DNA from: an uncultured Bacteroidales bacterium
GTDB taxonomy: Bacteria; Bacteroidota; Bacteroidia; Bacteroidales; Muribaculaceae
Assembly (NCBI GenBank): GCA_902800715.1
Contig: CADCFN010000015.1
Span: 62,001 to 126,000 of the forward strand
Direction of reading: 5' to 3'
Length of the DNA: 64,000 nt
Shown here: positions 15,222 to 38,478 of the stretch, piece after piece
How the letters are laid out: every line of letters begins with the position of its first letter
Numbering within the stretch: position 1 is the stretch's first letter
The notes under the pieces: model-generated
Databases searched by the model: none
What the model was told of the DNA's origin: nothing
What the model saw: the letters and a program-made list of their open reading frames with translations, nothing else
Program-made: the position numbers and the translations under genes

Positions 15222-15304
15222 AGTTTTTAGTCTCTAGTCTATAGTTCCCAGTCATAATAGTTCGCAAAACCAACTATTGACTGTTAACTATAAACTATTA
15301 ACTG
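15222..15304. repeat. TAGTCTC and AACTATT short repeats between riboswitch and btuB
   Basis: From 15222 a run of tagtttttagtctctagtc-type units is followed by aactattgactgttaactat-type units to 15304. They lie in the leader between the riboswitch and the btuB-like start codon, so they are transcribed. They resemble the phrases at 5-22, 822-856 and 45358-45381. Confidence 0.5.
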
Positions 15305-15307
15305 ATA

Positions 15308-15480
15308 TGGCAGGTCTTCTGACTTTTCCCCAGTCTGCTTTGCCTTCCCAGCCATGTCCACGGCCAGTGACATTTAGTAAGCAGACCCTGTGTTTGAGGG
15401 GATTACAGCTGCAGGTACAGTTCCGGACTCTCACCGGATTCCCTTGCATCGCAGTGGCCCAAAGCCACCCGATTACCATC
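15308..15480 (-). promoter_or_regulatory. Cobalamin (AdoCbl) riboswitch
   Basis: Read on the minus strand, the segment contains the conserved cobalamin-riboswitch blocks in order: a GGGAA(T)CCGGTGAGAGTCCGG block (complement of about 15421-15446), CTGTACCTGCAGCTGTAA, a GCCACTG block near the 5' end, and the terminal AGTCAGAAGACCTGCC (complement of 15309-15324). It sits between the promoter at 15492 and the btuB-like gene and should repress the leftward transport-biosynthesis operon when cobalamin is plentiful. Confidence 0.95.
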
Positions 15481-15491
15481 ATTTACGGCCG

Positions 15492-22816: not shown

Positions 22817-22853
22817 AGCTTGAAATAATAGACCATAACAGACATAAGGTATT

Positions 22854-22990
22854 TAATCATGTGATAACATAAACTAATGAAAACATTTGGTTATCAGTAG
22901 ATTACAAATCAATGATTAATTTGTCGCATCACTTGATTTAGTATGTTATATCCCAAAACAGGGGACTACAAATCGGTCCGAGTCCCCCTC
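22854..22990. repeat. 137-base island repeat, copy R1
   Basis: Starts taatcatgtgataacataaa and ends in a GGGGACT...AGTCCCC hairpin (about 22961-22987). A copy of about 80 percent identity lies at 33191-33328 in the same orientation. The outer parts aatcatgtgat and atcacttgatt are imperfect inverted repeats. The bases just beyond, gtgggctggag (22998-23008), resemble the tmRNA 3' end core gtggagctggag. Confidence 0.75.
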
Positions 22991-23166
22991 AGCGTAAGTG
23001 GGCTGGAGTACAATTATTTTGGCAATGATATAGCTGTTGGCCCACTAAAACCCGCGAATCTTTATCGGTTTGCGGGTTTTCTAGCATTCTTTAGCTAAAA
23101 ATATTCCGGATTTACTGGAAAAGTCGCGAACTTTGCATTACTTTAATACAAAAACGGTATATTGGT

Positions 23167-24141
23167 ATGATTAACTTCGCAAAGTTCAATAACATTATCT
23201 CACTCACTTCTTACTTCAACACTAAGGAGAAGTGCCAACAGGCCATCATCGAGTCACGTTGGGATGACGGTGACGTGGTTTGTCCCTACTGTGGCGCACA
23301 TCATTGCTCCAAGCGTGGTGACGGACGTTTCCGTTGCAACCACTGCCTCAAGAACTTCTCCTGTCTTGTGGGTACAATCTTCGAGAATACTAAGATGCCG
23401 CTTATCAAGTGGTTCGTGGCCATGTACCTTATCAGCAGCCATAAGAAAGGCATTTCCTCTCATCAGTTGAGCCGCGACCTTGATATCACCCAAGCAAGCG
23501 CATGGTATATGTTGCAGAAAATCCGCTTGCTTTATCCTCAGAGCGATGCAGAAGCCTTTGAGGGCACTGTGGAGTGCGATGAGGTGTACATCGGTGGCAA
23601 GGAGAAGTGGAAGCACAAATCCATGAGAACGCCCCATACCCAAGGCCGTTCAACCAAGACCAAGACCCCCGTATTCGGTATGATGGAGCGAACCTACATC
23701 GAGGATGAAAAGGGTGACGTAATTCCCATGAGTTACGTTCACGCGTTCGTTGTTGAAAAGACCGACAAGGCCACATTGCAGCCCATTATCAAGCAGTTCG
23801 TTGCTGAGGGTTCAACAGTCATTACCGATGAGTTGAACGCCTACAATGGTCTGACCAAGTTGGGTTACGGTCACGCCATCGTTAATCACGGTGCTGAACA
23901 GTACGCGATTGGGGACATATTTACCAACACCATTGAGGGTTTTTGGAGTCATTTCCGTAGGATGATTACGGGTTGCTACCATGACGTTAGTGACGAGCAC
24001 CTTCAGCAATACATTGACGAGGCCGTGTATCGTTGGAATACACGAAAAATGGACGAATCAGAGAGATTCGCCCACATGTTCTCGATGTCAATCGGCATGA
24101 TTGTCCGTTGGAGTGAGGTTAGGTTGTGCCAAGCGGCTTAA
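23167..24141 (+). CDS. IS1595 family (ISXO2-like) transposase
   Basis: 324 aa. An N-terminal zinc ribbon (CPYC near residue 39, CNHC near 57) for end binding is followed by the ISXO2-like DDE domain: VECDEVYIGG near 140, VITDELNAYNG near 220, and NTIEGFWSHFRRM near 258, which supply the acidic catalytic residues. Length and motif order are typical and the frame is intact. It is the element's mobility gene, 124 bases inside the left end. Confidence 0.95.
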   Translation: MINFAKFNNIISLTSYFNTKEKCQQAIIESRWDDGDVVCPYCGAHHCSKRGDGRFRCNHCLKNFSCLVGTIFENTKMPLIKWFVAMYLISSHKKGISSHQLSRDLDITQASAWYMLQKIRLLYPQSDAEAFEGTVECDEVYIGGKEKWKHKSMRTPHTQGRSTKTKTPVFGMMERTYIEDEKGDVIPMSYVHAFVVEKTDKATLQPIIKQFVAEGSTVITDELNAYNGLTKLGYGHAIVNHGAEQYAIGDIFTNTIEGFWSHFRRMITGCYHDVSDEHLQQYIDEAVYRWNTRKMDESERFAHMFSMSIGMIVRWSEVRLCQAA

Positions 24142-25692: not shown

Positions 25693-26625
25693 ATGGCTAA
25701 TAATGACAGAGGACCGAACTTGATGAGGAAGTACGTCTGGTTGATTGATACAATCTACCGAGCAGGGAGGATTTCGTTTAAGGAGATTAATGAGCGCTGG
25801 CGCCGTGACGTTGACATCAGCAGAGGGGAGGATTTGTCCATCCGCACATTCAAGCGGTGGGTCAATAACATCGGGGACTTGTTCGGGGTGTTTATCGAGA
25901 ACGAGCATTGTGCGGGATATTGCTACTACATTGAGAACATGGAGGACATCAACGAGAGCGGACTGCAGTCGTGGTTGTTCAACACATTCACGGTGAGTAA
26001 CGCTCTGACGGGTTGCATGGGCATCAAGGACAGAATCCAGCTGGAGTATGTGCCCTCGGGAGAACTGTACTTGCAGCCCATCATCGATGCGATGAAGGAG
26101 AACCGGGTGCTCAACATCACCTACAAGAGTTATTGGGAAGACCACGAGAAAAACTATGATGTACAGCCACTTTGCTTGAAACTGTTCCGCCAGCGATGGT
26201 ACGTGATAGTTCGTAAAAATGTCGATGAAGAGGATGCCAAAATTTGGATTTGCGCCCTTGACCGCATTTTGTCACTGGAGAAAACTGAGGAGACCTTCAC
26301 CATGCCTAAGGATTGGGACGTTCAGGCCTATTTCGATGGCTTTATCGGTGTGATTCGAAGCGAGGATTATGACAAGGAAATAGTGAAGTTTAAATTGGAT
26401 GCTGATCAGGCCAACTACCTCCGCGACCTCAAAATCCATCGGTCGCAGAAGGAGGAGCGCAATGACGAGTACAGCATATTTGAATATTATCTGCGTCCTA
26501 CTTTTGACTTCCAGCAGGAACTGCTCAAGTATGGTGAAGCATTGGAGGTACTTGAACCCAAGTGGCTCCGCGCCGAGATGGCTGAGAAGATCAATGAGAT
26601 GTTGAACTTATACAGAAAAGATTAA
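25693..26625 (+). CDS. WYL-domain transcriptional regulator
   Basis: 310 aa. The N-terminal part is a winged-HTH-like region (LMRKYVWLIDTIYRAGRISFKEI in part, residues 10-60), the middle (about 120-200) is the WYL domain with VLNITYKSYWE and LKLFRQRWYVIVRK, and a WCX-like C-terminal region follows. WYL proteins sense nucleic acids or nucleotides and often regulate defence islands. It sits between the transposon and McrBC, and its own promoter carries a palindrome that may be its operator. Confidence 0.85.
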   Translation: MANNDRGPNLMRKYVWLIDTIYRAGRISFKEINERWRRDVDISRGEDLSIRTFKRWVNNIGDLFGVFIENEHCAGYCYYIENMEDINESGLQSWLFNTFTVSNALTGCMGIKDRIQLEYVPSGELYLQPIIDAMKENRVLNITYKSYWEDHEKNYDVQPLCLKLFRQRWYVIVRKNVDEEDAKIWICALDRILSLEKTEETFTMPKDWDVQAYFDGFIGVIRSEDYDKEIVKFKLDADQANYLRDLKIHRSQKEERNDEYSIFEYYLRPTFDFQQELLKYGEALEVLEPKWLRAEMAEKINEMLNLYRKD

Positions 26626-26628
26626 TCC

Positions 26629-27127
26629 ATGAGAGATTTTGCAGCTATAGATTTTGAAACCGCCAACTATGATCGTTCCTCGGTGTGTTCGGTTGGAGTG
26701 GTCATTGTCCGTGACGGGGAGATTGTGGACAAGTTCTACTCGCTCATCCAGCCCGAGCCTAACTATTATAACTACTGGTGTAGTCAGGTTCATGGCCTGT
26801 GCCGTGCTGACACCGACAATGCCCCGGTGTTCCCAGATGTGTGGGCACAAATTGAGCCTCTGATTGAAGGCCTGCCGTTGGTCGCCCACAACCGCCCCTT
26901 TGACGAAGGCTGCCTTCGCGCCGTCTTCCGCACCTATCAGATGGATTATCCCGAGTATGAGTTCCTCGACACGCTTGCCGCAGAACCATCAACTCCAGAC
27001 CGTAGCTGCCGTCTGCGGCTTCCAATTAGAGAATCACCACCACGCCCTCGCCGACGCCGAGGCCTGCGCCTGGATAGCCATTCGGCTATTCTCTGACAAC
27101 AATGGCAATTTAGAGAACAAGAAATGA
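26629..27127 (+). pseudogene. DnaQ-like 3'-5' exonuclease, frameshifted
   Basis: Frame 1 (26629-27096) encodes Exo I (FAAIDFETAN) and Exo II (LVAHNRPFDEGCL) and then runs out of homology after EYEFLDTL. The expected C-terminus LPQNHQLQTVAAVCGFQLEN and Exo III HHALADAEACAWIA is encoded in frame 2, ending at 27127. Between FLDT and LPQNHQL about nine residues usual for the family are missing, so a small deletion of about 26 bases explains the shift. Without Exo III the product should be inactive. The start lies 3 bases after the WYL stop, so it was probably co-transcribed. Confidence 0.8.
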
Positions 27128-27214
27128 CAGCAGAAAAGTCGGTTTTGAAACTCATTAAGAATTTACATCACTCAAAAACCGCTAATCGTTTATCTTGAAT
27201 GACGGCAAATTTAA

Positions 27215-27246
27215 TTTGGGGCTTTAGGGGATTTTAACTACATTTG
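27215..27246 (+). promoter_or_regulatory. Promoter of the McrBC operon
   Basis: TTTG at 27215-27218 and TACATTTG at 27239-27246 fit the Bacteroidetes promoter. The rest of the 270-base gap (27128-27397) is AT-rich with no gene visible. Confidence 0.55.
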
Positions 27247-27397
27247 CAACCAGAACAATTTCTTACATTGTCAAAAAAGAGTTTTGACTTTGATAAGAAT
27301 AATAACACCCAGAGCAGATAGTAATCCATTCTATTGAGACAATTTTGTCGTAATACGATTATAACGATTTGTGATAATTATTTAAAGAAATCAAGCT

Positions 27398-29107
27398 ATG
27401 GCCAAATTCTATGTTATAAGTCCAAATGTGGAAAATGATAATAGTAAAACAGAAGATTATCTGAAAGAAATGTTCAATAACCATTCAATTCTAATGGGTT
27501 ATGACACAGATAGTCGCTGGGGGCAAATGTTTGCTGATATGCAATCAGGAGATTATGTTATATGTGCCCAAGGCGCAAATTGGCAAAAAAAATGTTTTTT
27601 TGCTGGAATGGTATGTGGTGAGAGACAAGGTGAATGGCCTTTTTCGCGAAACCTTAAAGGTTTTGTGGATCTTCGTAATGAAAAGGTCCCATTTTCAACA
27701 AGCAATACATATGGAGCTTCTAATCAAACTACTGCGATATATGAATTAAAAAAGGATAATGAAGCTGATTTAGTTATTATTAGCCTTATAGAGAACAAAG
27801 TAAACAATACATTAAAGAAAGAAATGATTCTTAATTGCTCTAATTTATTGGTGGCAAATAAAAATATGATTCTTACCGGTGCCCCTGGCACCGGTAAGAC
27901 GTACTTAGCTAAGGAGATTGCAATGAATATGGGGTGTGACGAAGATTTTATAGGCTTTGTTCAATTTCACCCATCTTATGACTATACAGATTTTGTTGAG
28001 GGTTTGAGGCCGATAAAAAAGGGAAACACAGTAGGGTTTGAAAGAAAAGATGGTGTATTTAAGGAATTTTGTAAGAAAGCTCTTACTCTTTCAGCGGGGT
28101 CATTATTTGATAAAGCTTACAATAATCTTATTCAATCTATTGAATCTGGTAAATTGACAACCATTCAGCTAAAGACTAAGCCTTCTGCTAAATTGGATGT
28201 AAGGGGGACCGATAGTATAGGGTGGTATTCTGAAACAGAAAAGGGGAACAAGTCAAGTAATGTGGTATCAAGAGATCGCCTAAAAAATCTTTATGAAGTT
28301 TATAATACACTTGAAAAGTTAGATAATCTGACTAATATCAATGAAGGCATTCAATCTGTCATAGGTGGTTGTGATTCCACTTATTATTGGGGAGTACTTC
28401 ATCATATACTAAAACAACCGTTTGTTTTCATTATAGATGAAATTAACCGTGGCGAAATTTCAAAAATCTTTGGTGAGTTATTTTATTCGATAGACCCTGG
28501 ATATCGAGGAGGTAAAGGTAAAGTTGATACTCAATATCAAAACTTGATTCCTAAAGAAGGAGATATTGATTTTGAAGCAAACAATGCAGATGCCTTTAGA
28601 TACGGTTTTTACGTTCCTGAAAATGTCTATATCATAGGAACTATGAATGATATTGATAGAAGTGTAGAAAGTATGGATTTTGCTATGCGAAGAAGATTTG
28701 CTTGGAAGGAAATGTCTGCAAAATCTAGACAGTCTATGCTTGATGAAGAAGATGCTTGGGGTGAGAATGGCAAACCAGAGCAAGTGATTATTGATAAAAT
28801 TAAGGTTAAAATGGATAACTTGAACGCTTGCATCATTGATGAGTATAAAAAAGAATTATCTACCAAGGATGAGATTGGACTTACCAAGGCTTACCAAATA
28901 GGTGCAGCGTATTTTCTCAAATATGGTCTTTATGAAAGCAACCAATTTGAAAATTTATGGAATAACCATCTTGAAGGGTTACTTCGTGAATACTTAAGAG
29001 GTACTACAGACATTGAAGATAAGATACAAAAGTTAAAAGCAGCCTATGATGATGAGAGTAAGAACCAAAACGAGAAACCAAGAAACCAAGAAATTGATAA
29101 AGACTGA
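27398..29107 (+). CDS. mcrB: McrB-like GTPase subunit of a type IV restriction system
   Basis: 569 aa. Residues 1 to about 130 look like an EVE/PUA-type base-reader (MAKFYVISPNVEN, GDYVICAQGANW, FFAGMVCGE), expected to recognise modified DNA. The AAA+ GTPase has Walker A GAPGTGKT near 161, VQFHPSYDYTDFVEGLRP near 188 (McrB signature), Walker B FIIDEINRGEISKIFGELF near 345, and NDIDRSVESMDFAMRRRFAW (MNxxDRS motif) near 410. It drives cleavage by McrC at modified DNA. It overlaps mcrC by 62 bases. The region is markedly AT-rich against the PLD gene that follows, suggesting acquisition. Confidence 0.92.
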   Translation: MAKFYVISPNVENDNSKTEDYLKEMFNNHSILMGYDTDSRWGQMFADMQSGDYVICAQGANWQKKCFFAGMVCGERQGEWPFSRNLKGFVDLRNEKVPFSTSNTYGASNQTTAIYELKKDNEADLVIISLIENKVNNTLKKEMILNCSNLLVANKNMILTGAPGTGKTYLAKEIAMNMGCDEDFIGFVQFHPSYDYTDFVEGLRPIKKGNTVGFERKDGVFKEFCKKALTLSAGSLFDKAYNNLIQSIESGKLTTIQLKTKPSAKLDVRGTDSIGWYSETEKGNKSSNVVSRDRLKNLYEVYNTLEKLDNLTNINEGIQSVIGGCDSTYYWGVLHHILKQPFVFIIDEINRGEISKIFGELFYSIDPGYRGGKGKVDTQYQNLIPKEGDIDFEANNADAFRYGFYVPENVYIIGTMNDIDRSVESMDFAMRRRFAWKEMSAKSRQSMLDEEDAWGENGKPEQVIIDKIKVKMDNLNACIIDEYKKELSTKDEIGLTKAYQIGAAYFLKYGLYESNQFENLWNNHLEGLLREYLRGTTDIEDKIQKLKAAYDDESKNQNEKPRNQEIDKD

Positions 29108-30443
29108 AGACTATAATAAAGGAGAATCTGTCAACCCTGAAGATCTTCATGACCTAAAGGCCATTGCAGATGTGGGTATCTCTAATATTACATTAGAGGA
29201 TTATCCCAATTTGCTTGTTTTCCCAGACTCCTTTGATAAGTATGATACGAATTTTGGGAAAAAGGTTATATGTAGCATTTCTGACGATGGTAAGATGCTA
29301 TACACAAATAGCATTGTAGGCTTTGTTGGTAGGAATAATACCCACTTATCCATTCAATCAAGGTTTGCCAATGATGATAAAGAAGACTTCTTTTTGCACT
29401 ATATGCTCCAAAAGGTCGCAAAGATTAACTTATTTAGTCTTCAACATATGATGGATAAAGATAGTGTTTTTGATTTTCTTATATATCTCTTCCCTCTATA
29501 TTTAAAGAAAGCGATCAACCAAGGTATATTTAAGAAATACGTTACCCATAAGTATAACGATGCCAATGTTAGGGGTGTGATTGATGTCAACAGGCACATA
29601 AGGTATAATGAACCCTTCAATGGCAAAGTAGCTTATAACACCAGAGAATATGACTATGATAATGAAGTCACACAGCTTATCAGACATACTATCGAATTCA
29701 TCCGAAAGCACAAGCGAAGCGATATTCTTAAAATAGATACTGATACCAACCAAGCTGTAGCTCAAATCGTAAGTGCAACCCCATCATTTATGCCCAATCA
29801 AGTTCATCTGGTTATTAATAAGAATCTGCGACCAATAGCCCATCCTTATTATAGTGAGTATACACCACTTCAAAGACTGTGCTTGCAAATCCTTAGGCAC
29901 GATGAAATAAAGTATGGCCAAAAGAAAGATGAAATATATGGTGTACTGATTGATGCTGCATGGTTATGGGAAGAATACTTAGCGATATTGTTGCACAGCC
30001 AATACATTCATTGTGTAAAGAACAAACGGCCAAAGTTTTTTCTTTTTAAACCCAAGAATCAGCAGATAATACCGGACTTCCTTTCTTTGGATAAAAGAAT
30101 TGTCGCAGATGCAAAGTACATACGATTGAATGAAAAACATTGGTTCGAGGAGGATAGTGCAAATGCTACTGCCATTTACTATAAGACCATCACTTATATG
30201 TATAGGTTTTGCTCAAAAAAAGGATATCTGTTATATCCACATCCTGAAGATAAGCCAATGACGCCAACCACCACACTTGAAATCTTATCTGAGCAAGAAG
30301 GAATAAATGGCGGAACATTAATCAAGTTGGGATTGATAATACCTCAAGGTTGCACTGACTTTCCACAATTTGTAGATTCAATTCGGAAAAATGAGGACAA
30401 TTTTAAAATGAATCTATTTAATAATGCTACAGTTCATCTCTAA
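29046..30443 (+). CDS. mcrC: McrC-like endonuclease subunit
   Basis: 465 aa; the true start may be one of several ATGs near 29046-29100 because the frame opens inside mcrB. The C-terminal PD-(D/E)XK nuclease is seen as IIPDFLSLDKRIVADAKYIRL (given here as IIPDFL and VADAKY, about residues 345-362). The N-terminal part has the McrC pattern, with a LLVFPDSFDKYD region and NDANVRGVIDVNRHIRYN. It cuts DNA recognised by McrB. It overlaps the PLD gene by 20 bases, so all three proteins should be made in fixed ratio. Confidence 0.9.
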   Translation: MMMRVRTKTRNQETKKLIKTEDYNKGESVNPEDLHDLKAIADVGISNITLEDYPNLLVFPDSFDKYDTNFGKKVICSISDDGKMLYTNSIVGFVGRNNTHLSIQSRFANDDKEDFFLHYMLQKVAKINLFSLQHMMDKDSVFDFLIYLFPLYLKKAINQGIFKKYVTHKYNDANVRGVIDVNRHIRYNEPFNGKVAYNTREYDYDNEVTQLIRHTIEFIRKHKRSDILKIDTDTNQAVAQIVSATPSFMPNQVHLVINKNLRPIAHPYYSEYTPLQRLCLQILRHDEIKYGQKKDEIYGVLIDAAWLWEEYLAILLHSQYIHCVKNKRPKFFLFKPKNQQIIPDFLSLDKRIVADAKYIRLNEKHWFEEDSANATAIYYKTITYMYRFCSKKGYLLYPHPEDKPMTPTTTLEILSEQEGINGGTLIKLGLIIPQGCTDFPQFVDSIRKNEDNFKMNLFNNATVHL

Positions 30444-30936
30444 TAGTGACCATTATGGGGAGGTGCTGGCGCGGGTAGCAAATGTAAAGCGCAGCCTGTG
30501 GATCGGTACGGCTGACATCAAAGACTTGCATGTCAAGGTGGGTGATACGACCAAGCCGTTTCTGGCGGTTATCGCTCTGCTGATTAGACGTGGTGTTGAG
30601 GTAAGGCTGATTCATGCTAAGGAGCCGGGGCCGAACTTCAGGGAGGACTTTGACAGGTATCCCGTGCTGTATGACCGGTTGGAGCGGGTGCTGTGTCCCA
30701 GGGTGCATTTCAAGATGCTGGTGTTTGACTGTGAGGAGGTCTATATCGGTAGCGCCAACCTCACGGGGGCAGGCATCGGCATGAAGAGTAGCGATAAGCG
30801 CAACTTCGAAGCCGGCATCCTTACCGATGATCCTCAAATCGTCGAGCAGGCCATGAAGCAGTTCGACAACGTCTGGATGGGCAAGCACTGCAAAACCTGC
30901 AAGCGCAAGGACTTCTGCCCAGATCCCATTGTATAA
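30424..30936 (+). CDS. Phospholipase D-like nuclease coupled to McrBC
   Basis: 170 aa with a single HKD half-site: H-F-K-M-L-V-F-D near residue 95 followed by GSANLTG. Single-HKD proteins act as dimers, commonly as nucleases. A C-terminal cysteine cluster, CKTCKRKDFC (about 158-167), may bind zinc or Fe-S. The start lies within the mcrC end, so it is translationally coupled and likely an extra effector of the restriction system. Codon use and GC content are unlike mcrBC and resemble the chromosome, so it may have joined the operon separately. Confidence 0.82.
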   Translation: MLQFISNSDHYGEVLARVANVKRSLWIGTADIKDLHVKVGDTTKPFLAVIALLIRRGVEVRLIHAKEPGPNFREDFDRYPVLYDRLERVLCPRVHFKMLVFDCEEVYIGSANLTGAGIGMKSSDKRNFEAGILTDDPQIVEQAMKQFDNVWMGKHCKTCKRKDFCPDPIV

Positions 30937-32014: not shown

Positions 32015-33016
32015 ATGACAAAAATGAATTCAGATAGCCAAGAACAGGATAACTACCAGCGTAACATTATCAAGGCGATTGGCGTCGGCGGTGGTGGCAT
32101 CAATGCTGTTAACCACATGTATTTACAAGGTATCGAGGGAGTAACCTTTGTTGTATTCGACACAAACAGTTATCTTCTCGACACATCACCAGTTCCCAAC
32201 CGTTTTTTGCTAAGATCAGACATGACACATCGTAGTGCTGCTGAGGTGAGTGAATCCGAGATTGCTGCTCTATTTGACGATGATACCAAGATGGTCATCA
32301 TTATTGTGGGCTTGGGTGGGGAGACTGGAACCGATGTGGCTCCTGTCGTGGCTCGTATTGCTCGCGAGAAAGAGGTAACACTTACCGTTGGCGTCGTGAC
32401 AATCCCCTTCCAGTTTGAGGGAACCGAAAAGATTCAAATGGCTCTTGCAGGGATCGAAGAGATGCGCAAGCATGTCGATGCTTTGTTTGTCATCAACAAT
32501 GAGCACTTAACTGAAATAAACAACGACCTAGACCAAAGCAATGCATTTGCAAAATCCGATGAAACGCTGACTACAGCTGTTCGCTCTCTCTACGAGATTA
32601 TTGCAGTCAAGAATTAACTCTGCATAGACTTTAACGATTTGAGATATACCCTGCACAAAGGCGGTCAAGCTATGGTCTTTTCGGGCTATGCCGTGGGTGA
32701 GTGCCGCGTGACCAAGGCTCTTGAAGACGCCTTTGAATCGCCCTTGCTCAAGGACTGCGATATTTATAGTTCTAGAAAGATGATGATGAATTTCTATTAC
32801 AATCCCGACAGCGAGTCTCCGCTCCTAATGGAGGAGATGAATGATGTCCAGGCATTCATGTCCAACTTCAACCAAGACACGGATGTGATATGGGGTATGG
32901 CATACGACAACACCCTTGAGGATCAACTCAAAGTGACTGTGTTGGCTTCAGGATTCAACGTGTCATACAAGAGCGATATAAAGCCACTAAAGAATATGCT
33001 ATCACAGAATGGCTAG
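32015..33016 (+). pseudogene. FtsZ paralogue split by one in-frame stop codon
   Basis: Codons 1-200 (to 32617) encode an FtsZ GTPase domain: GVGGGGINAVNHMY near residue 23 (T1 loop), VGLGGETGTDVAPV near 97 (tubulin signature, normally GGGTGTG, changed here), TIPFQFEG, and VINNEHLTEI. A TAA at 32615-32617 ends the frame. The same frame then continues with IDFNDLRYTL (T7 loop, D residues kept, N replaced by C) and the FtsZ C-terminal domain (SGYAVGECRVTKALEDAFESPLL, DVIWGMAYD, VTVLASGF) to 33016. Only the stop separates the halves. It is not the housekeeping ftsZ (no ftsA/murC neighbours). It may be a recent pseudogene, two polypeptides, or a read-through product. Confidence 0.8.
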
Positions 33017-33107: not shown

Positions 33108-33169
33108 TAGCTCCATTAAAAAACAGCAAGTAGCTGAATGTTAGCTGCTTGCTTGTGGCGCTGGAGGTT
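33108..33169. other. Degenerate copy of tmRNA 3' end plus terminator (candidate att site)
   Basis: Read on the minus strand: acctccagcgccac, then a hairpin gcaagcagct/agctacttgc (33126-33153), then a T-run and aatggagcta. The tmRNA gene end at 38026-38092 has the same order: ctccagctccac, hairpin, T-run, attggagcta. The hairpin stems differ but keep pairing. This is what a displaced 3' end left by integration at ssrA would look like. Confidence 0.6.
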
Positions 33170-33190
33170 TTATCGAATGATAATACTTAC

Positions 33191-33328
33191 TAATCATGTG
33201 ATAGCATAAACTAATGAAAATATTTGGTTATCAATCAGTTGCAGACTGATGATTAATTTGTCGTATCACACGATTAGTATGTTTTATCCCAAAAGGGGGG
33301 AATACAAAACGGCCCCGATTCCCCCCTC
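33191..33328. repeat. 137-base island repeat, copy R2
   Basis: Starts taatcatgtgatagcataaa and ends in a GGGGGGAAT...ATTCCCCCC hairpin (about 33295-33326). It is about 80 percent identical to R1 at 22854-22990. The part aaaaggggggaatacaa is repeated at 37934-37950. Confidence 0.75.
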
Positions 33329-33363
33329 TGATATCTATCGTAATGCAATAGAAATAGGCCAAT

Positions 33364-36228
33364 TTATATGCTACTTAACGAGTCAATAAGAGTAGTAGCA
33401 ACCTCAGGATGGCGGAAAGTGATGATATTGTCATCTTGCTTGTAGAAGCCAAGGGGGTTAACGTTGCCGTACCATAGACGGGAGCGGTCGATGATGGTGG
33501 CTGAAAATGATAGGCTCACTTTAATGATGATTCTTATTCCGTACTTTTCCAAGTGTTCGGTATACTCGTTCTTCTCTCTGGTCGCTACTGCAATCTTGAT
33601 GCCTTTGGGAATGAGGTCAGCAAGTCGTGTGGCGACTAATGAGCGGTGGCTAAACTTTACTTTGGGACAAATGATTATGATGGATCTTTTGGCAGAACCA
33701 AGAGATGAAATGTAACGAGTTATGAAGTTGGAGCCATTGAAAATCTGGTTTTCTGGTTCTTGAATGTCGGCGAATAGGCCATCTGGCATGAGCGAGTATC
33801 CGATGGATGCATAGCCTTTAAGTCTGCGTCGATACATAGCTTCACATACAGGAATATTAAAGTCGATATAGTCATAAATGCGCACCTCTTGTTTCCCGAC
33901 GTGATCGCGATGCAGGCGACCTGCATATTGCGCGATGATACCTTTCCATGAAACTGGCAGAGCGAGAAACAATGTGTCAAGCCTGGGACGGTCAAATCCC
34001 TCGCCGATGTACTTTCCTGTGGCTATGATGACGAGAGGGTCATTGTCTGAGAGTTGATTTAATCGTTCCATTTTCAACCTCTTCTCTTTGGTGCTCTCTG
34101 AACCTATCAGTACGATGACATTTGCGCAATGATGTTTCAGGAGATTAGCAAGTGAATCAACATGTGTTGTTAGGCTAGAAAGTACTAATGGAGTTCGCCC
34201 TTCTTTCAATGCTGTGCAAACGTCATCAACAATGAGGCGGTTACGGTATTCATCCTCTGCGAGTTGGTGAATGATTTGCATGTAGGGCAAATTCTTGTCA
34301 ATAACATCGTGGTAATGTGTGAAACGGGGTACAAGCAATCTGCTAAAAGACTGCATTTGCATTTGATGCTTGGCGTCAGCTGTGTATCTAATCGGGCCGC
34401 ATTGCATGAATATGATGGGCTGATGTCCATCTTTCCTTATGGGAGTCGCGGTCAGGCCATAGACCCGATGTGCATTTGTTTCTTTCAGAACGTGCTCAAA
34501 GTTTACCGCAGACACATGATGACACTCATCGACAATCACCAAGCCGTATTCCTTGACAAACGGTTTTACCTCTCCATTGGTAATGCAAGACTGGATGAGG
34601 GCGATATCAATGAAGCCATGCAATGAGTTGCCAGCAGAACTGAGTGTGCCAATAGGGGAAGATTTCTTTGGTCTGCCTCGTTTGGGTTTGGTTTCTTTAG
34701 GTATGTATTTGATTGACAGAAACTTGCCTAATTCCTTTTTCCATTGTTCAAGGAGCGCTTTAGTATGCGTTAGAATTAGCGTATTAACTCCGTGTCTTGC
34801 AATCAGTCCTATTGCGGCAACAGTCTTACCAAAAGCCGTTGTAGCCGACATCACGCCATTTGTATTCTCGCTTAATAGTGAAACTGCTTTTGCTTGGTCG
34901 CTGCGCAACTCTTCAGTGAAAGTGACATGAATGGGTTTCCCATGATTGGTTTTGTCGATGATTTCATAGTTCACCTCATTGTCTTCTAGGAATTGGATGA
35001 CAGCATCTTCACAACCACGAGGTAATGCCAGGTAGTCATCAATGATTTCAGCGCAAGAGATGATGCGAGGAATGTTATAGGTGGTTAGACGCATAGCCTG
35101 TCGGCTATAAAATTCTGGATTCCTGAATGAGGCGATACGCTTGAAGTGATTGATAATCTTTGCCGATAATGCCCCAATAGGAAAGTATAGCATGTTCGCT
35201 TTTACGATGGTCAGTTTGGCTGCAAAATCTCTTTTATCAATCGTTGGTGCCACAGGAGTTTCCCAAGGCTTGTTCTCGCTAGTTGTGGCAAGTGCACCAA
35301 GGGGCTGGGCACCAGCTTTTGACTGAAGCAAGATGTCAACATCTGCCTTAGCCAGTTTCTTTATTTTGAGCAAGTATTCCCATTGGTCGGGATAGGGCTC
35401 AAAATGCTCGTTCACAAATACGCTGTTTCCTTGTTTTCTTGCCTGGCCTTGTAACGGCAGTGCCACGAGGTTACCTAAGCCACCTTGTGGCAGGTAATCC
35501 TGATTTGGAAAGAAACGGTCATATGATTTGAACGAAATACAACCGTCACGATTTGTGGCTTCAGTTAGAATAGCATACCCTAACCGTCGTGCTTTGGCAG
35601 CCGAAATCGGAGCATCAAAAAATATCCAGACATGTGCCCCATTTCCTGAACGAGAACGTTCAATAGAGTAGGGGATGTTCCAACTTTTGCAGACGTTGAC
35701 AAATGTCAATACATCACCTTTATAGCCATGCTCGCAGTTCTTGTCATCAAAATCGGCGCAAAGCAGATGGCAGGTATTGTCATCCTTGATGACATACAAC
35801 CCCATCACATCGCGGCAATTGGGCGCTTTCCCTTCAAGATGACGATAGATGTCATTGTCAGTGAGCTTGGAGAATTGCCGGTTAGGGCATTCACTGCATT
35901 TGTATAGTCGCTTGTTGCACAGTTGCGGATTCCATTCGTTTTCACAGGCTGGTTGATATCCACTTTTGCCATTTGAACAGTTCTGCCATCGCCGGGCAAA
36001 TACATCTTCCCGTCCACGGAACAAACTACGAAACAAGGCAACCTTTTCATCCAACGACAATCGGGTCATTGCTGGAGGAGGCAGGGACTTTTCGTGGCCT
36101 GACCTTTGTGGCTCATACTGTATCAGTCGCTGACGAAGTACCGAAATCACATCCTCAAGTTGCTTTATTCGCACTAGAAGAGCATCCCGTTCGCGCTTGA
36201 GTTCCTGATATGATATCGAATCGTTCAT
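33364..36228 (-). CDS. TOTE-type protein: AEP primase, SF2 helicase and PLD nuclease in one chain
   Basis: 954 aa. A coiled-coil start (residues 8-40) is followed by an archaeo-eukaryotic primase domain of the TOTE type: FRSLFRGREDVFARRW near 70, a Cys cluster (C..C near 112-119), CADFDD near 159 (catalytic acids), and SRSGNGAHVWIFF near 195. An SF2 helicase follows: ATTAFGKT near 460, VDECHHVS near 566, TATPIRKDG, QYAGRLHRD near 767. The last ~120 residues (from NGSNFITRYI near 835) look PLD-like but with a degenerate HKD. Such proteins are the core of TOTE conflict systems proposed by comparative genomics. It follows the ATPase gene by 23 bases on the same strand. Confidence 0.85.
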   Translation of the reverse strand: MNDSISYQELKRERDALLVRIKQLEDVISVLRQRLIQYEPQRSGHEKSLPPPAMTRLSLDEKVALFRSLFRGREDVFARRWQNCSNGKSGYQPACENEWNPQLCNKRLYKCSECPNRQFSKLTDNDIYRHLEGKAPNCRDVMGLYVIKDDNTCHLLCADFDDKNCEHGYKGDVLTFVNVCKSWNIPYSIERSRSGNGAHVWIFFDAPISAAKARRLGYAILTEATNRDGCISFKSYDRFFPNQDYLPQGGLGNLVALPLQGQARKQGNSVFVNEHFEPYPDQWEYLLKIKKLAKADVDILLQSKAGAQPLGALATTSENKPWETPVAPTIDKRDFAAKLTIVKANMLYFPIGALSAKIINHFKRIASFRNPEFYSRQAMRLTTYNIPRIISCAEIIDDYLALPRGCEDAVIQFLEDNEVNYEIIDKTNHGKPIHVTFTEELRSDQAKAVSLLSENTNGVMSATTAFGKTVAAIGLIARHGVNTLILTHTKALLEQWKKELGKFLSIKYIPKETKPKRGRPKKSSPIGTLSSAGNSLHGFIDIALIQSCITNGEVKPFVKEYGLVIVDECHHVSAVNFEHVLKETNAHRVYGLTATPIRKDGHQPIIFMQCGPIRYTADAKHQMQMQSFSRLLVPRFTHYHDVIDKNLPYMQIIHQLAEDEYRNRLIVDDVCTALKEGRTPLVLSSLTTHVDSLANLLKHHCANVIVLIGSESTKEKRLKMERLNQLSDNDPLVIIATGKYIGEGFDRPRLDTLFLALPVSWKGIIAQYAGRLHRDHVGKQEVRIYDYIDFNIPVCEAMYRRRLKGYASIGYSLMPDGLFADIQEPENQIFNGSNFITRYISSLGSAKRSIIIICPKVKFSHRSLVATRLADLIPKGIKIAVATREKNEYTEHLEKYGIRIIIKVSLSFSATIIDRSRLWYGNVNPLGFYKQDDNIITFRHPEVATTLIDSLSSI

Positions 36229-36251
36229 GAAAAGCTTTCCATTGGAGACAA

Positions 36252-37676
36252 CTACTTGAACAAATCATCCATGGTCAGCGTTTCAACAAATGTGGATGAA
36301 TGCATTCCGTCCTTCAAACCATAGGTTGTTATCAACGTGGGCCATAATGCTCCTTTTGCACCTGTGTCCTGTTTAAAGGCTGCGGCTCGATTGCGTAATT
36401 TAATCGTTTCGGTGTTGTTCATGGAAAACTCAGCTTCGCTGTATTTCATTTCGCAAAGGTTGATGATTCCGTCTGCGCGATCAAGAATCATGTCTATTTG
36501 AGCTTTCGGTTGCGATTGCTTACTTTGCCACGAATAGAATTTTGTCGAAATCCGATCGATGCCCAGGGCTTTCTTGATTTGAGTTACATGGGTCATGCAG
36601 ACCCTCTCAAAGCACAGCCCCAACCATGTGTTGATTTCAGGTGTACCGATATGATTCGTCCAATAGTTGGTTTCGGCCTCTGCACGCGGAACGAATGTCA
36701 GATAAAACTGCGAATAGAAATCTGTTAGCTGATAAATAGCGGAACGATTGCTGATGCGTTTCTCTCTCACCACGTACTTTCGGATGATATCACAATTAAC
36801 TAAGTCCTCCAACTTCTGGCTGAGCGTACCGTTTGGGGCAGTTCCAAGAGCAGAGCTTAACTCTTTGCGGGTCATACCATGTTTTACTTTTGATAATGTA
36901 TTGACGATAGACATATAAGACTCAGGCGATTGAAACAATGTTGAATACAATCGTTTGTATTCCCTGCGTAACTCCTCCTCTTCTCCAAAGAAAAGCCGGT
37001 CAATGTTTGTTGCAAAGCTCTCATTATGATGCAAAAGGCTCAAATAATAGGGCACTCCGCCAAGAGCCATGTATGCCTGTAAAACAGAAAGACGCTCCCA
37101 CTTGAAATTGCGACTTTTTAGATATGTTTCGGTTTCATGAAGTGTGAATGGATGCAGATGTATTTCGTGAGTAATGCGGTCATGGAGTCCGCCCTTATCA
37201 TTAACAACATTTTTGATCATCCAAGATGTGGCACTGCCGCAAACAATTAATGTGAGATTGTCTTGCATCGATGCCCATGAGTTCCAAAAGTATCCCAAGG
37301 CCCGCACAAAACCTGAGCGTTGTGTGTCCATGGATGGAAGTTCATCCAGGAATACGATGCAACGTCGTTTCAATGTGACCTTTCGTTTTAGGTGCTCCTT
37401 CAATAACCTAAATGCTTCCATCCAGTTTTCAGGACGTTTGACGGTTTTCTTGCTATATTCTTGGAGTGCATCTATAAACGCCTCCATTTGTTCCTCTGAA
37501 GTACCGTCAAGTACCCCAGTCATGGCAAAAGCCATTTTGCCATGAAACAAATGATTGACCAAGAATGTTTTTCCCACACGTCTGCGACCATAAATGGCAA
37601 CAAATTCAGGACGGTCTGAAGATGTGTATTCTGTCAACAGTTGTATCTCTTTTTCTCTGCCAATAAGCTTATCCAT
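36252..37676 (-). CDS. AAA ATPase with C-terminal DUF234 nuclease-like domain
   Basis: 474 aa. Start MDKLIGREKEIQLL, Walker A YGRRRVGKTFLV near residue 30, Walker B CIVFLDELPSM near 108, CGSATSWM sensor near 147, a winged-helix region (about 270-320) and a C-terminal DUF234 segment with the PD-(D/E)XK pattern AQIDMILDRADGIINLCEMKYS (in part; D, E and K kept). Members are linked to mobile islands and are thought to act as toxin-like or defence ATPases. It is the first gene of a two-gene leftward operon with the TOTE protein. Promoter TACCTTTG is at 37701-37708 on the minus strand. Confidence 0.85.
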   Translation of the reverse strand: MDKLIGREKEIQLLTEYTSSDRPEFVAIYGRRRVGKTFLVNHLFHGKMAFAMTGVLDGTSEEQMEAFIDALQEYSKKTVKRPENWMEAFRLLKEHLKRKVTLKRRCIVFLDELPSMDTQRSGFVRALGYFWNSWASMQDNLTLIVCGSATSWMIKNVVNDKGGLHDRITHEIHLHPFTLHETETYLKSRNFKWERLSVLQAYMALGGVPYYLSLLHHNESFATNIDRLFFGEEEELRREYKRLYSTLFQSPESYMSIVNTLSKVKHGMTRKELSSALGTAPNGTLSQKLEDLVNCDIIRKYVVREKRISNRSAIYQLTDFYSQFYLTFVPRAEAETNYWTNHIGTPEINTWLGLCFERVCMTHVTQIKKALGIDRISTKFYSWQSKQSQPKAQIDMILDRADGIINLCEMKYSEAEFSMNNTETIKLRNRAAAFKQDTGAKGALWPTLITTYGLKDGMHSSTFVETLTMDDLFK

Positions 37677-37700
37677 AATGAAAGGTTAATTTGGTTGATG

Positions 37701-37781
37701 CAAAGGTATGATTATTATTTAAATCGACAATGAGTTTTGGCTAAAACTCGCAAAAAATCTTTGTTTTAGCTGAAACTCATT
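37701..37781 (-). promoter_or_regulatory. Promoter and large operator-like palindrome of the ATPase-TOTE operon
   Basis: The -7 box is the complement of 37701-37708. Behind it aatgagttttggctaaaac (37729-37747) and gttttagctgaaactcatt (37763-37781) form a 19-base imperfect palindrome (17 matches) covering the -33 region. This suggests repressor control, perhaps by the ATPase's own winged helix. Confidence 0.65.
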
Positions 37782-37932
37782 TGTGATTTATGTCATTTGT
37801 GCTTCCCAAACTTCGTCATTTCAGATTTTGACTTCTTGATGTTAGCAATAGCTTTTGGAGCAAAGAACTCCAAAACAAAACGAGATATGGTGAGTTGAGC
37901 ACAGATGCTTCAAGCCATCATTCAATGTCAGG

Positions 37933-37960
37933 AAAAAGGGGGGAATACAACGGGGGAATA
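37933..37960. repeat. GGGGGGAATACAA motif R3 near the tmRNA gene
   Basis: Contains aaaaaggggggaatacaa and cgggggaata. The first part also occurs inside R2 (33291-33309). The two copies lie near the two ends of the segment between the tmRNA and its degenerate 3' copy. Confidence 0.5.
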
Positions 37961-38025
37961 AAGTGGTAATAAGAAATCATAAATCGCTGAAAATCATTTA
38001 CTTGAAAGCAATCTATTGGAGCCAT

Positions 38026-38081
38026 CTAGCTCCAATAAAAACAAACGAGTAACCATCTGACAGATGGTTGCTCGTTGTTTG
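38026..38081 (-). terminator. tmRNA terminator
   Basis: caaacgagtaaccatct and agatggttgctcgttgtttg pair closely around gac (38042-38081), and on the minus strand a T-run follows (38033-38041). A further small palindrome attggagc/gctccaat lies at 38015-38036. Confidence 0.85.
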
Positions 38082-38478
38082 TGGAGCTGGAGGGGTTTGA
38101 ACCCTCGTCCAAACGTGGAACTAATAAGGTTTCTACATGCTTAGTCTTGGCTTGGTTTTCGACCGCTGGCAGGCCCGAGACAACCAACCGGCGGCTTATC
38201 CTCTAAATTTCGGACTCGGCCCGAGGCTTACCTTGTCCTATCGCCGATATTCCTGCACCACCGTTTCAACCCGCCTCGGCGCGAGGGCAGTTGGGTGATG
38301 TCTCGTCACTGCCCCTTGGGCAGCGATAAAGCCGAACTTACTGTGCTTCGGTTAGGCAGCGAGAGCGTAGTTGTTTTCGCCATTTAATTGAGTCAATGAC
38401 TGAGATTTAAGAGCATTGCCATTATCGCTCTGCATGCTTGCTTACCACCTCTACACGCTGTCAAAGCCAGTCAGCCCC
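38082..38478 (-). ncRNA. ssrA: Transfer-messenger RNA (tmRNA)
   Basis: Read on the minus strand it starts GGGGCTGACTGGCTTTGACA at 38478 and ends in the T-arm and acceptor GGGTTTGAACCC..CCAGCTCCA (complement printed as ggagctggaggggtttgaac). The acceptor ends pair as in all tmRNAs; CCA is not encoded. The tag frame at 38352-38381 reads GGC GAA AAC AAC TAC GCT CTC GCT GCC TAA, giving GENNYALAA, the type known from Bacteroidales. A promoter with TACTTTTGC lies about 35 bases upstream. It rescues stalled ribosomes. Its 3' end is a frequent integration site for islands. Confidence 0.95.

Follow-up and report, generated by a model that had tools for sequence, protein, structure and literature searches.

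We analysed a 64,000-nucleotide stretch (hereafter the window; contig CADCFN010000015.1, positions 62,001 to 126,000 of the forward strand) from an uncultured Bacteroidales bacterium of the Muribaculaceae (assembly GCA_902800715.1). It carries an operon of two genes, in which an ATPase gene of the PDC-S27 family is followed by the gene of a 954-aa protein joining an archaeo-eukaryotic primase (AEP) domain, a superfamily 2 (SF2) helicase and a phospholipase D (PLD)-like end. Comparison across 89 loci revealed that this AEP-helicase gene closes operons whose earlier gene is exchangeable among at least five partner families. The operon is real and conserved, and by the features examined it is not a TOTE system.

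Domain organization of the operon proteins

Both open reading frames (ORFs) lie at the coordinates given in the initial annotation of this DNA (Table 1), on the minus strand and with 23 bp between the ATPase gene and the start of the downstream AEP gene. The two genes are adjacent in 7/7 loci of the window's clade, including L064, which has a cut ATPase gene. Neither outcome that the initial annotation had named as refuting it came about, the N-terminal domain matching an AEP profile and the adjacency being conserved.

The 954-aa protein begins with a helical part (residues 7–37 in the model) and a four-cysteine cluster, followed by the AEP domain at residues 61–298, an SF2 helicase that starts at residue 440 and ends near residue 800, and a PLD-like fold at the C-terminus. 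According to Pfam, the AEP domain matched the AEP-TOTE family PF22548 with E = 2.9e-97, ResIII matched residues 440–598 (E = 1.6e-18), and Helicase_C matched residues 671–774 below the family cut-off. The structure model had a mean predicted local distance difference test value (pLDDT) of 84.8. Its AEP part was closest to the CAPP primase-polymerases both by sequence (E = 7e-21) and by fold (TM to target 0.77–0.81), the helicase part was closest to XPB by both measures, and the C-terminus showed a weak likeness to mitochondrial cardiolipin hydrolase (E = 0.008). The architecture proposed in the initial annotation, i.e., an AEP domain, an SF2 helicase and a PLD-like end, was thus confirmed by profiles and structure matches.

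Catalytic residues of the primase and the helicase were kept in 87–89 of 89 family rows, the exceptions being gaps or the substitutions T593S/A594S. Residues D159, D161, and H199 were present in 88 rows (one gap) and D237 in all 89; we take them to be the DxD, H and D motifs of AEP enzymes. The HKD motif (HxKxxxxD) of PLD nucleases reads S-F-S-A-T-I-I-D in the window, lacking the H and the K, as the initial annotation had suspected. Among 79 family rows with letters at this position, H and K were not both present in the window and 68 other rows, and H.K....D was intact in 10/79 (window counted). These 10 rows belonged to Bacillota, WOR-1, and Saganbacteria and none to Bacteroidota, so a dead PLD fold seems typical of the Bacteroidota branch. 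Twenty sequences from the window's taxonomic family had suggested that the motif is lost throughout the protein family, a view that the same 10 rows overturned.

Relatives with AEP proteins 93% identical came from uncultured Prevotellaceae and Bacteroidales assemblies named RUG. If RUG stands for rumen, as we presume, these names and the Prevotellaceae relatives point to a rumen Prevotella-like host. PF22548 was present in 25 of 397 genomes of the window's taxonomic family.

The 474-aa partner consists of an ATPase_2 domain (E = 5.8e-17), a predicted winged helix-turn-helix (wHTH) part and a PD-(D/E)XK nuclease, the DUF234 match (E = 9e-4) falling just under the Pfam cut-off. The coupling to a DUF234 ATPase directly upstream, also claimed in the initial annotation, therefore holds. 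In PADLOC, the PDC-S27 model covered residues 1–473 of 474 (638 bits), i.e., the protein is full-length. The ATPase residues G30, R31, G35, K36, and T37 (Walker A) and D111 and E112 (Walker B), as well as the nuclease residues E357, D395, E409, and K411, were invariant in 68/68 PDC-S27 members examined. With the three best candidates per genome scored, 207 of the 397 genomes had PDC-S27 at E ≤ 1e-20. The structure model of the ATPase was poor (pLDDT 54.6). Elsewhere in the own genome, a second PDC-S27 gene is present as a fragment with an internal stop (G000:C12:94915-95166).

Exchange of partners upstream of the AEP gene

Besides the window, 104 AEP loci were fetched (24 and the best 80 of 573). 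Three without an AEP ORF of more than 500 aa, 12 duplicates, and one short locus were dropped, which left 89. The upstream partner was SLFN-AlbA_2/HATPase_c_4 in 16, AAA_14-DUF4143 in 15, ATPase_2-DUF234 in nine, AbiEii in four, and RhuM in two, so that the five named families together account for 46/89 loci. An extra ORF separates the AlbA and AEP genes in 8 of the 16 AlbA loci, and the AlbA labels of L059 and L130 were assigned from fragments (181 and 104 aa, respectively). The AlbA and AEP genes of L067, L069, and L071 flank an ORF of 286–294 aa, which in L067 had no Pfam match. A dedicated, fixed AEP-DUF234 pair is ruled out by this exchange. Of the pairing described in the initial annotation, the adjacency stands, and the two-gene system gives way to one of at least five interchangeable partnerships.

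Ten partners were tested with PADLOC: three DUF4143 proteins matched PDC-S01, one RhuM protein PDC-S05, two DUF234 proteins PDC-S27, and one was identified as AbiEii. Two AlbA proteins matched parts of Argonaute-system models, and the AAA protein of L096 had no match.

The bias toward the upstream side was strong. When neighbours were defined as the closest ORFs of 150 aa or more no farther than 1.5 kb away (upstream n = 83, downstream n = 68; no such ORF in 6/89 and 21/89 loci, respectively), the upstream neighbour was on the same strand as the AEP gene in 73/83 cases vs. 27/68 downstream, and both on the same strand and within 100 bp in 48/83 vs. 6/68. The neighbours matched 91 Pfam families upstream and 121 downstream, and the 25 commonest of each were considered. 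Upstream counts were AAA_14 25, DUF4143 16, AlbA_2 12, ATPase_2 9, RhuM 4, and AbiEii 4; downstream, AAA_14 and DUF4143 were matched twice each, and AlbA_2 and ATPase_2 were not among the 25 commonest families of the 68 neighbours. Of the 89 AEP genes, 32 had a partner-family gene no more than 300 bp upstream, compared with 5/636 of the remaining genes in these loci; three of the five sit inside AEP operons. The profiles used for this last count were built from the partner set itself, and the Pfam comparison is the independent one.

On the AEP tree (quick search with SH-aLRT supports only; six labels including "other"), partner labels required a minimum of 27 changes, where the least possible is 5 and the shuffled mean 42.4. 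AlbA and DUF4143 changed 10 times each and DUF234 twice. Partner labels thus cluster on the tree, yet unrelated partners were gained repeatedly. In the sister lineage closest to the window's clade, the partner is DUF4143 in L063, an AlbA fragment in L059, and AbiE in L138.

Promoter and palindromic operator

Upstream of the ATPase gene, TTG-19-TACCTTTG forms a probable promoter, judged against what we take to be the Bacteroidetes promoter consensus; a spacing of 19–20 bp was found in 6/6 clade loci. Next to it lies a predicted twin palindromic operator, outside the span 33364..37676 of the initial annotation. Its arms of 28 nt are 82% complementary and separated by a spacer of 15 nt. The repeat consists of two near-palindromic 18-mers 29 bp apart, and the inner arm abuts the probable promoter. 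The window-type inverted repeat beat all 60 shuffles in 6/6 testable clade loci, the seventh, L064, being cut by the contig end.

We surveyed 98 PDC-S27 loci, which are high-scoring genome matches and partner loci rather than a random draw; 96 had enough upstream sequence. With 40 first-order Markov samples per locus, the upstream inverted repeat was reached by at most 1/40 shuffles in 78/96 loci, and a repeat score of at least 12 was observed in 58/95 loci vs. 8/110 control genes. Broken down by partner of the AEP gene, a repeat beating all 60 shuffles preceded the operon in 7/8 DUF234, 2/14 DUF4143, 0/14 AlbA, and 0/4 AbiE loci. Among PDC-S27 loci without a known AEP neighbour, the repeat was reached by at most 1/60 shuffles in 27/31. 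These counts rule out that the operator is tied to the AEP operon. The palindrome is there, as had been annotated, and it belongs to the PDC-S27 ATPase family rather than to the ATPase-AEP pair.

The repeat arms differ greatly among PDC-S27 paralogues: the window's 18-nt half-site, searched on one strand because it is near-palindromic and with as many as 3 mismatches allowed, had no match in 30 other PDC-S27 loci. By eye, an A-tract was frequent in the arm spacers of loci L028–L057 and L243–L302, many of them GTG..AAAAAA..GAG-like with differing arms.

Variation of the arms was compared with variation of the protein in 68 of the 96 loci, weak repeats, arms longer than 25 nt, and four named rows having been dropped. 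Arm similarity scored without reverse complements correlated weakly and unspecifically with the protein and was given up for another measure. In 52 pairs at least 80% identical, residues 278–289 were the 12-residue window that best predicted arm similarity (rho 0.64), and the four top-ranked windows lay within 276–290. Over all pairs, the partial Mantel value was highest for residues 262–318 (0.166; 0/200 permutations). By motif and the low-confidence ATPase model, residues 278–289 are the predicted recognition helix. Within one group of 85–90% identical PDC-S27 proteins, a single arm base tracks the start of this helix: CCTCC goes with IP[TS]GGD (L032, L034, L253), CCCCC with IKTSGD (L048), and CCGCC with VRTGGE (L247). 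In L065 (same record as L085), the ATPase is 94% identical to that of the window, and both arms are changed, the AGCT core being replaced by ATCC/GGAT. Ten of its 30 amino-acid differences fall in residues 266–285, with every residue of 279–285 changed, and 0/20,000 random placements were as dense. Because arm similarity best follows residues 278–289, these data point to binding of the PDC-S27 ATPase to its own palindromic operator.

A cassette at the ssrA gene

The operon starts just 3' of the transfer-messenger RNA (tmRNA) gene and lies between two 14-nt attachment (att) copies. The own genome contains three matches to the 14-nt tmRNA end at no more than 1 mismatch, and two of them are the cassette borders. 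The right border is common to six clade loci (the window, W, together with L061, L064, L065, L066, and L070). In five relatives, clade homology stops at the right border, and in L076 at the left one. In the latter, further cargo stands between the operon and the cassette end; another cassette's end precedes the operon, and homology to the window stops there. No recombinase of its own was found in the cassette, only the two operon genes filling the span between its borders.

In 101 genomes of the genus, the tmRNA end was found in 79 and the exact end motif in 12, the window's end differing by a base and so not being counted; there was none among the reversed-pattern controls listed for the same genomes. 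Cassettes with the same end carry other cargo. A locus with a GH97 gene and a TonB receptor was found in five genomes, its proteins being 90–100% identical, and another cassette type carries an epimerase-like gene. One cassette of each type stands in tandem with the operon (G307, G222). Because most proteins of the sugar-use cassette are more than 96% identical, it has likely been transferred recently between genomes classed as different species. This 13-kb cassette was seen at ssrA or bounded by a cassette end in L355, L356, L357, L358, and L361. The same ssrA site is occupied in L063, with a DUF4143 partner, by a cassette with its own end.

The 34 nt after ssrA in G264 are identical to the 34 nt after the cassette end in G313, as an empty site would give. 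This stretch is a terminator-like hairpin, and the flanks beyond it differ. No empty site for the window's own flank was found in 30 ssrA loci.

A tyrosine recombinase family occurs beside the cassette end in G260 and, in G095, beside an end-like signature 8 kb from ssrA; it was detected in 16/101 genomes of the genus at E ≤ 1e-60. A tyrosine recombinase of this kind is likely the helper of recombinase-less cassettes. No homologues of the likely helpers were found in the own genome (3.3 Mb, 89% complete) at E ≤ 1e-60 and 1e-20. Loci L360:729-3725 and L377:7362-8747 each hold a tyrosine recombinase next to a cassette end. Scans of other AEP loci for tRNA genes gave scattered neighbours only, some of them close (e.g., L098, L073, L114).

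Table 1. Features of the operon, its cassette and the adjoining DNA in the window.
Feature	Position	Strand	Basis
Integrase-less ssrA cassette with operon, 4,940 bp	33154..38093	.	att copies flank operon; clade homology borders
Right att, copy of tmRNA 3' end, CCTCCAGCGCCACA, 1 mismatch	33154..33167	-	Sequence match
Left att, 3' end of tmRNA gene itself, CCTCCAGCTCCACA	38080..38093	-	Sequence match
tmRNA gene (ssrA), integration target	38081..38478	-	ARAGORN, Rfam RF00023
Conserved right-end signature of ssrA cassette family	33155..33332	-	E = 4e-57, the window's end itself in the model
Second, truncated cassette-end signature, relic of an older neighbouring cassette	22853..23005	-	E = 1.1e-33, not in the model
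AEP primase-polymerase/XPB-like SF2 helicase/pseudo-PLD protein, 954 aa	33364..36228	-	Pfam, structure matches, catalytic residues
ATPase_2-predicted wHTH-PD-(D/E)XK (DUF234) protein, PDC-S27 family, 474 aa	36252..37676	-	Pfam, PADLOC, residues
Probable -7 box, TACCTTTG	37701..37708	-	Read from sequence; 6/6 clade loci
Probable -33 box, TTG, 19 bp upstream of -7 box	37728-37730	-	Read from sequence; 6/6 clade loci
Predicted twin palindromic operator, arms 37720-37747 and 37763-37790	37720..37790	.	Inverted-repeat search, shuffle test
WYL regulator, exonuclease, McrB-like AAA_5, McrC, PLD protein	25693-30936	+	
Split ftsZ-like gene	32015-33016	+	
Cobalamin riboswitch	15292-15483	-	

Neighbouring genes

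The genes from the WYL regulator to the PLD protein form a separate defence-like cluster adjoining the cassette. The PLD protein of this cluster gave weak DrmC-like matches in one direction. The truncated cassette end lacks its att part and lies near an IS1595-type transposase gene (23167-24141); it suggests an older cassette that would have held the McrBC-like genes in between. The ftsZ-like gene just past the cassette border is split into an N-terminal ORF of 200 aa (Tubulin/FtsZ) and a C-terminal ORF of 125 aa (FtsZ_C), and we assume that it is a second copy. A cobalamin riboswitch lies farther away on the minus strand.

Proposed role and alternative explanations

We propose, with a probability of about 50%, that the ssrA cassette, the self-repressing PDC-S27 protein and the AEP-helicase as the engine make up a two-component module directed against mobile elements. 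Anatomy, apparently intact enzymes, gene order, cassette borders, partner exchange, and the covariation of operator and helix were read from the DNA; from these we infer repression, sensing, an effect on phages or plasmids, and the defence role. The 4.94-kb site-specific cassette, devoid of its own recombinase, would insert at the 3' end of the tmRNA gene. The PDC-S27 protein most likely binds the promoter-overlapping twin palindrome through its winged helix and represses its own operon until a trigger, which may be foreign DNA or replication stress, releases the repression. The exchangeable first gene would sense or set the threshold, and the last gene would stay constant. The primase-helicase could then unwind foreign DNA and lay primers or copy the exposed single strands; its PLD fold is probably catalytically dead, and the nuclease of the partner may serve as a second, nucleolytic arm. 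Since the exchanged partners share little but a DNA-binding or toxin-like character, the coupling is more likely to be regulatory or guard-like than to be a tight complex specific to one partner. More tentatively, and with somewhat less than an even chance, one AEP-helicase may be the common module behind unrelated self-regulated candidate-defence genes, with the sensor swapped and the DNA-acting engine kept, each PDC-S27 nuclease guarding a private palindrome by means of its own recognition helix, and the operons of the window's lineage spreading as small ssrA cassettes.

Several observations weigh against this proposal. At 43/89 loci the upstream gene belongs to none of the five partner families, and 10/83 nearest upstream ORFs are on the opposite strand. 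Repeats passing the shuffle test were also found in 21/110 control genes. Beyond close pairs, which are mutually dependent, the link between helix and palindrome is no longer strong; among close pairs, the fifth-ranked window is 88–99 (0.58). When pairs down to 55% identity are taken (n = 213), the helix scores 0.37, hardly more than the ATPase (0.31) and nuclease (0.32) parts. The all-pairs value for residues 262–318 is small, other segments reaching 0.05–0.10, and a column scan with a cruder arm measure placed 2 of the top 25 columns in 256–300. Finally, relatives of the AEP-helicase are common on plasmids (106 records), so that the gene may serve plasmids instead of fighting them.

The main alternative, to which this last point leads, is that the AEP-helicase helps integrative elements and plasmids to replicate or become established, and that its partner is a stabilizing (addiction-like) or regulatory gene of the element. 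Of four plasmid relatives looked at, one adjoins AlpA and inovirus-Gp2 genes and three are near toxin or antitoxin genes. An integrase profile was matched by 7/68 downstream neighbours of AEP genes, and integrases lie upstream in L075 and L069. Among the plasmid matches listed, 18/20 rows end at residue 811–817, short of the PLD part, and no match to phage records was obtained with the AEP protein at E ≤ 1e-30. We regard this alternative as unlikely, if still to be taken seriously: the window's cassette has no recombinase, and sister cassettes with the same end carry the GH97/TonB or epimerase-like cargo without an AEP gene, so that in this cassette family the AEP gene looks like cargo and not like a part of mobility, which weakens a replicative role here.

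It is less probable still that two independent single-gene defences simply stand side by side in an ssrA hotspot, their adjacency having no functional meaning. The partners mostly occur alone: of 31 PDC-S27 loci without a known AEP neighbour, 2 are followed within 100 bp by an ORF of 150 aa or longer on the same strand. PDC-S01, PDC-S05, PDC-S27, and AbiE are, according to PMC13356809, among the commonest rumen defence genes, so common that chance neighbours are possible. The strong bias in strand, gap and order, the adjacency at 32/89 vs. 5/636 genes, and the separate pairing repeated on the tree all speak against mere coincidence.

That the operon is a canonical TOTE conflict system and the AEP-helicase its effector is very improbable. 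The name stands for TPR, OB, TBP, Effector, and the systems were described by Aravind et al. (2022; as cited in PMC12458937). An AEP-type effector domain is present, as the AEP-TOTE profile match indicates. By Pfam (E ≤ 0.001), no TPR protein, no OB-fold (CSD) protein and no TATA-binding-like protein was found near the window's operon, i.e., in its two genes and 15 neighbours between 23167 and 43631. TPR, OB/CSD, and TBP were likewise not among the 25 commonest families of the 83 upstream and 68 downstream neighbours at the 89 loci. Three of four defining components being absent from the vicinity, TOTE membership was rejected, and with it the label that the initial annotation had used.

The private palindrome and the predicted recognition helix give a direct biochemical handle on which DNA a PDC-S27 protein binds. 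The common downstream primase-helicase would link several candidate defence families functionally and make the function of these common genes easier to test. The ssrA cassettes would explain how the operon moves, and in the window's genus a candidate defence operon and sugar-use operons appear to travel in the same kind of vehicle.

Comparison with known systems

In a literature search that covered few subscription papers and preprints, none of the titles and abstract openings listed described the AEP pairing or the PDC-S27 palindromes. TOTE conflict systems resemble the operon in the AEP family PF22548 and in the large multidomain DNA-acting protein; unlike them, it has no TPR, OB or TBP gene nearby, and the partner is an ATPase, nucleotidyltransferase (NTase) or regulator gene. 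The closest solved AEP by sequence and fold is the CRISPR-associated primase-polymerase (CAPP; PDB 7nqd, 7nqe, 7nqf, 7p9j), whereas the AEP of the window is fused to a helicase and a pseudo-PLD part, with no CRISPR gene among the 15 neighbours scanned. Among the best helicase matches, XPB/Rad25 and UvsW were found by sequence and fold and RadD by sequence; in contrast to these, the helicase of the window sits between a primase-polymerase and a PLD fold.

The partner is a full-length PDC-S27, and PDC-S01 or PDC-S05 fills the homologous slot at other loci. In PADLOC and PMC12988326, PDC-S27 and PDC-S01 are catalogued as single-gene defence candidates; here, they are coupled to a constant AEP-helicase, and PDC-S27 has paralogue-specific palindromes. 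The cassette itself is similar to the ssrA islands and cis-mobilizable elements of Dehalococcoides, which, according to PMC3146451, also stand in tandem, have ssrA and direct repeats of the ssrA 3' end as their borders, and in some cases encode neither integration nor transfer. The cassettes described here differ from these islands in host and ends, one being only 4.9 kb long, and the recombinase near window-type cassettes is of the tyrosine type, while that of Dehalococcoides is a serine recombinase.

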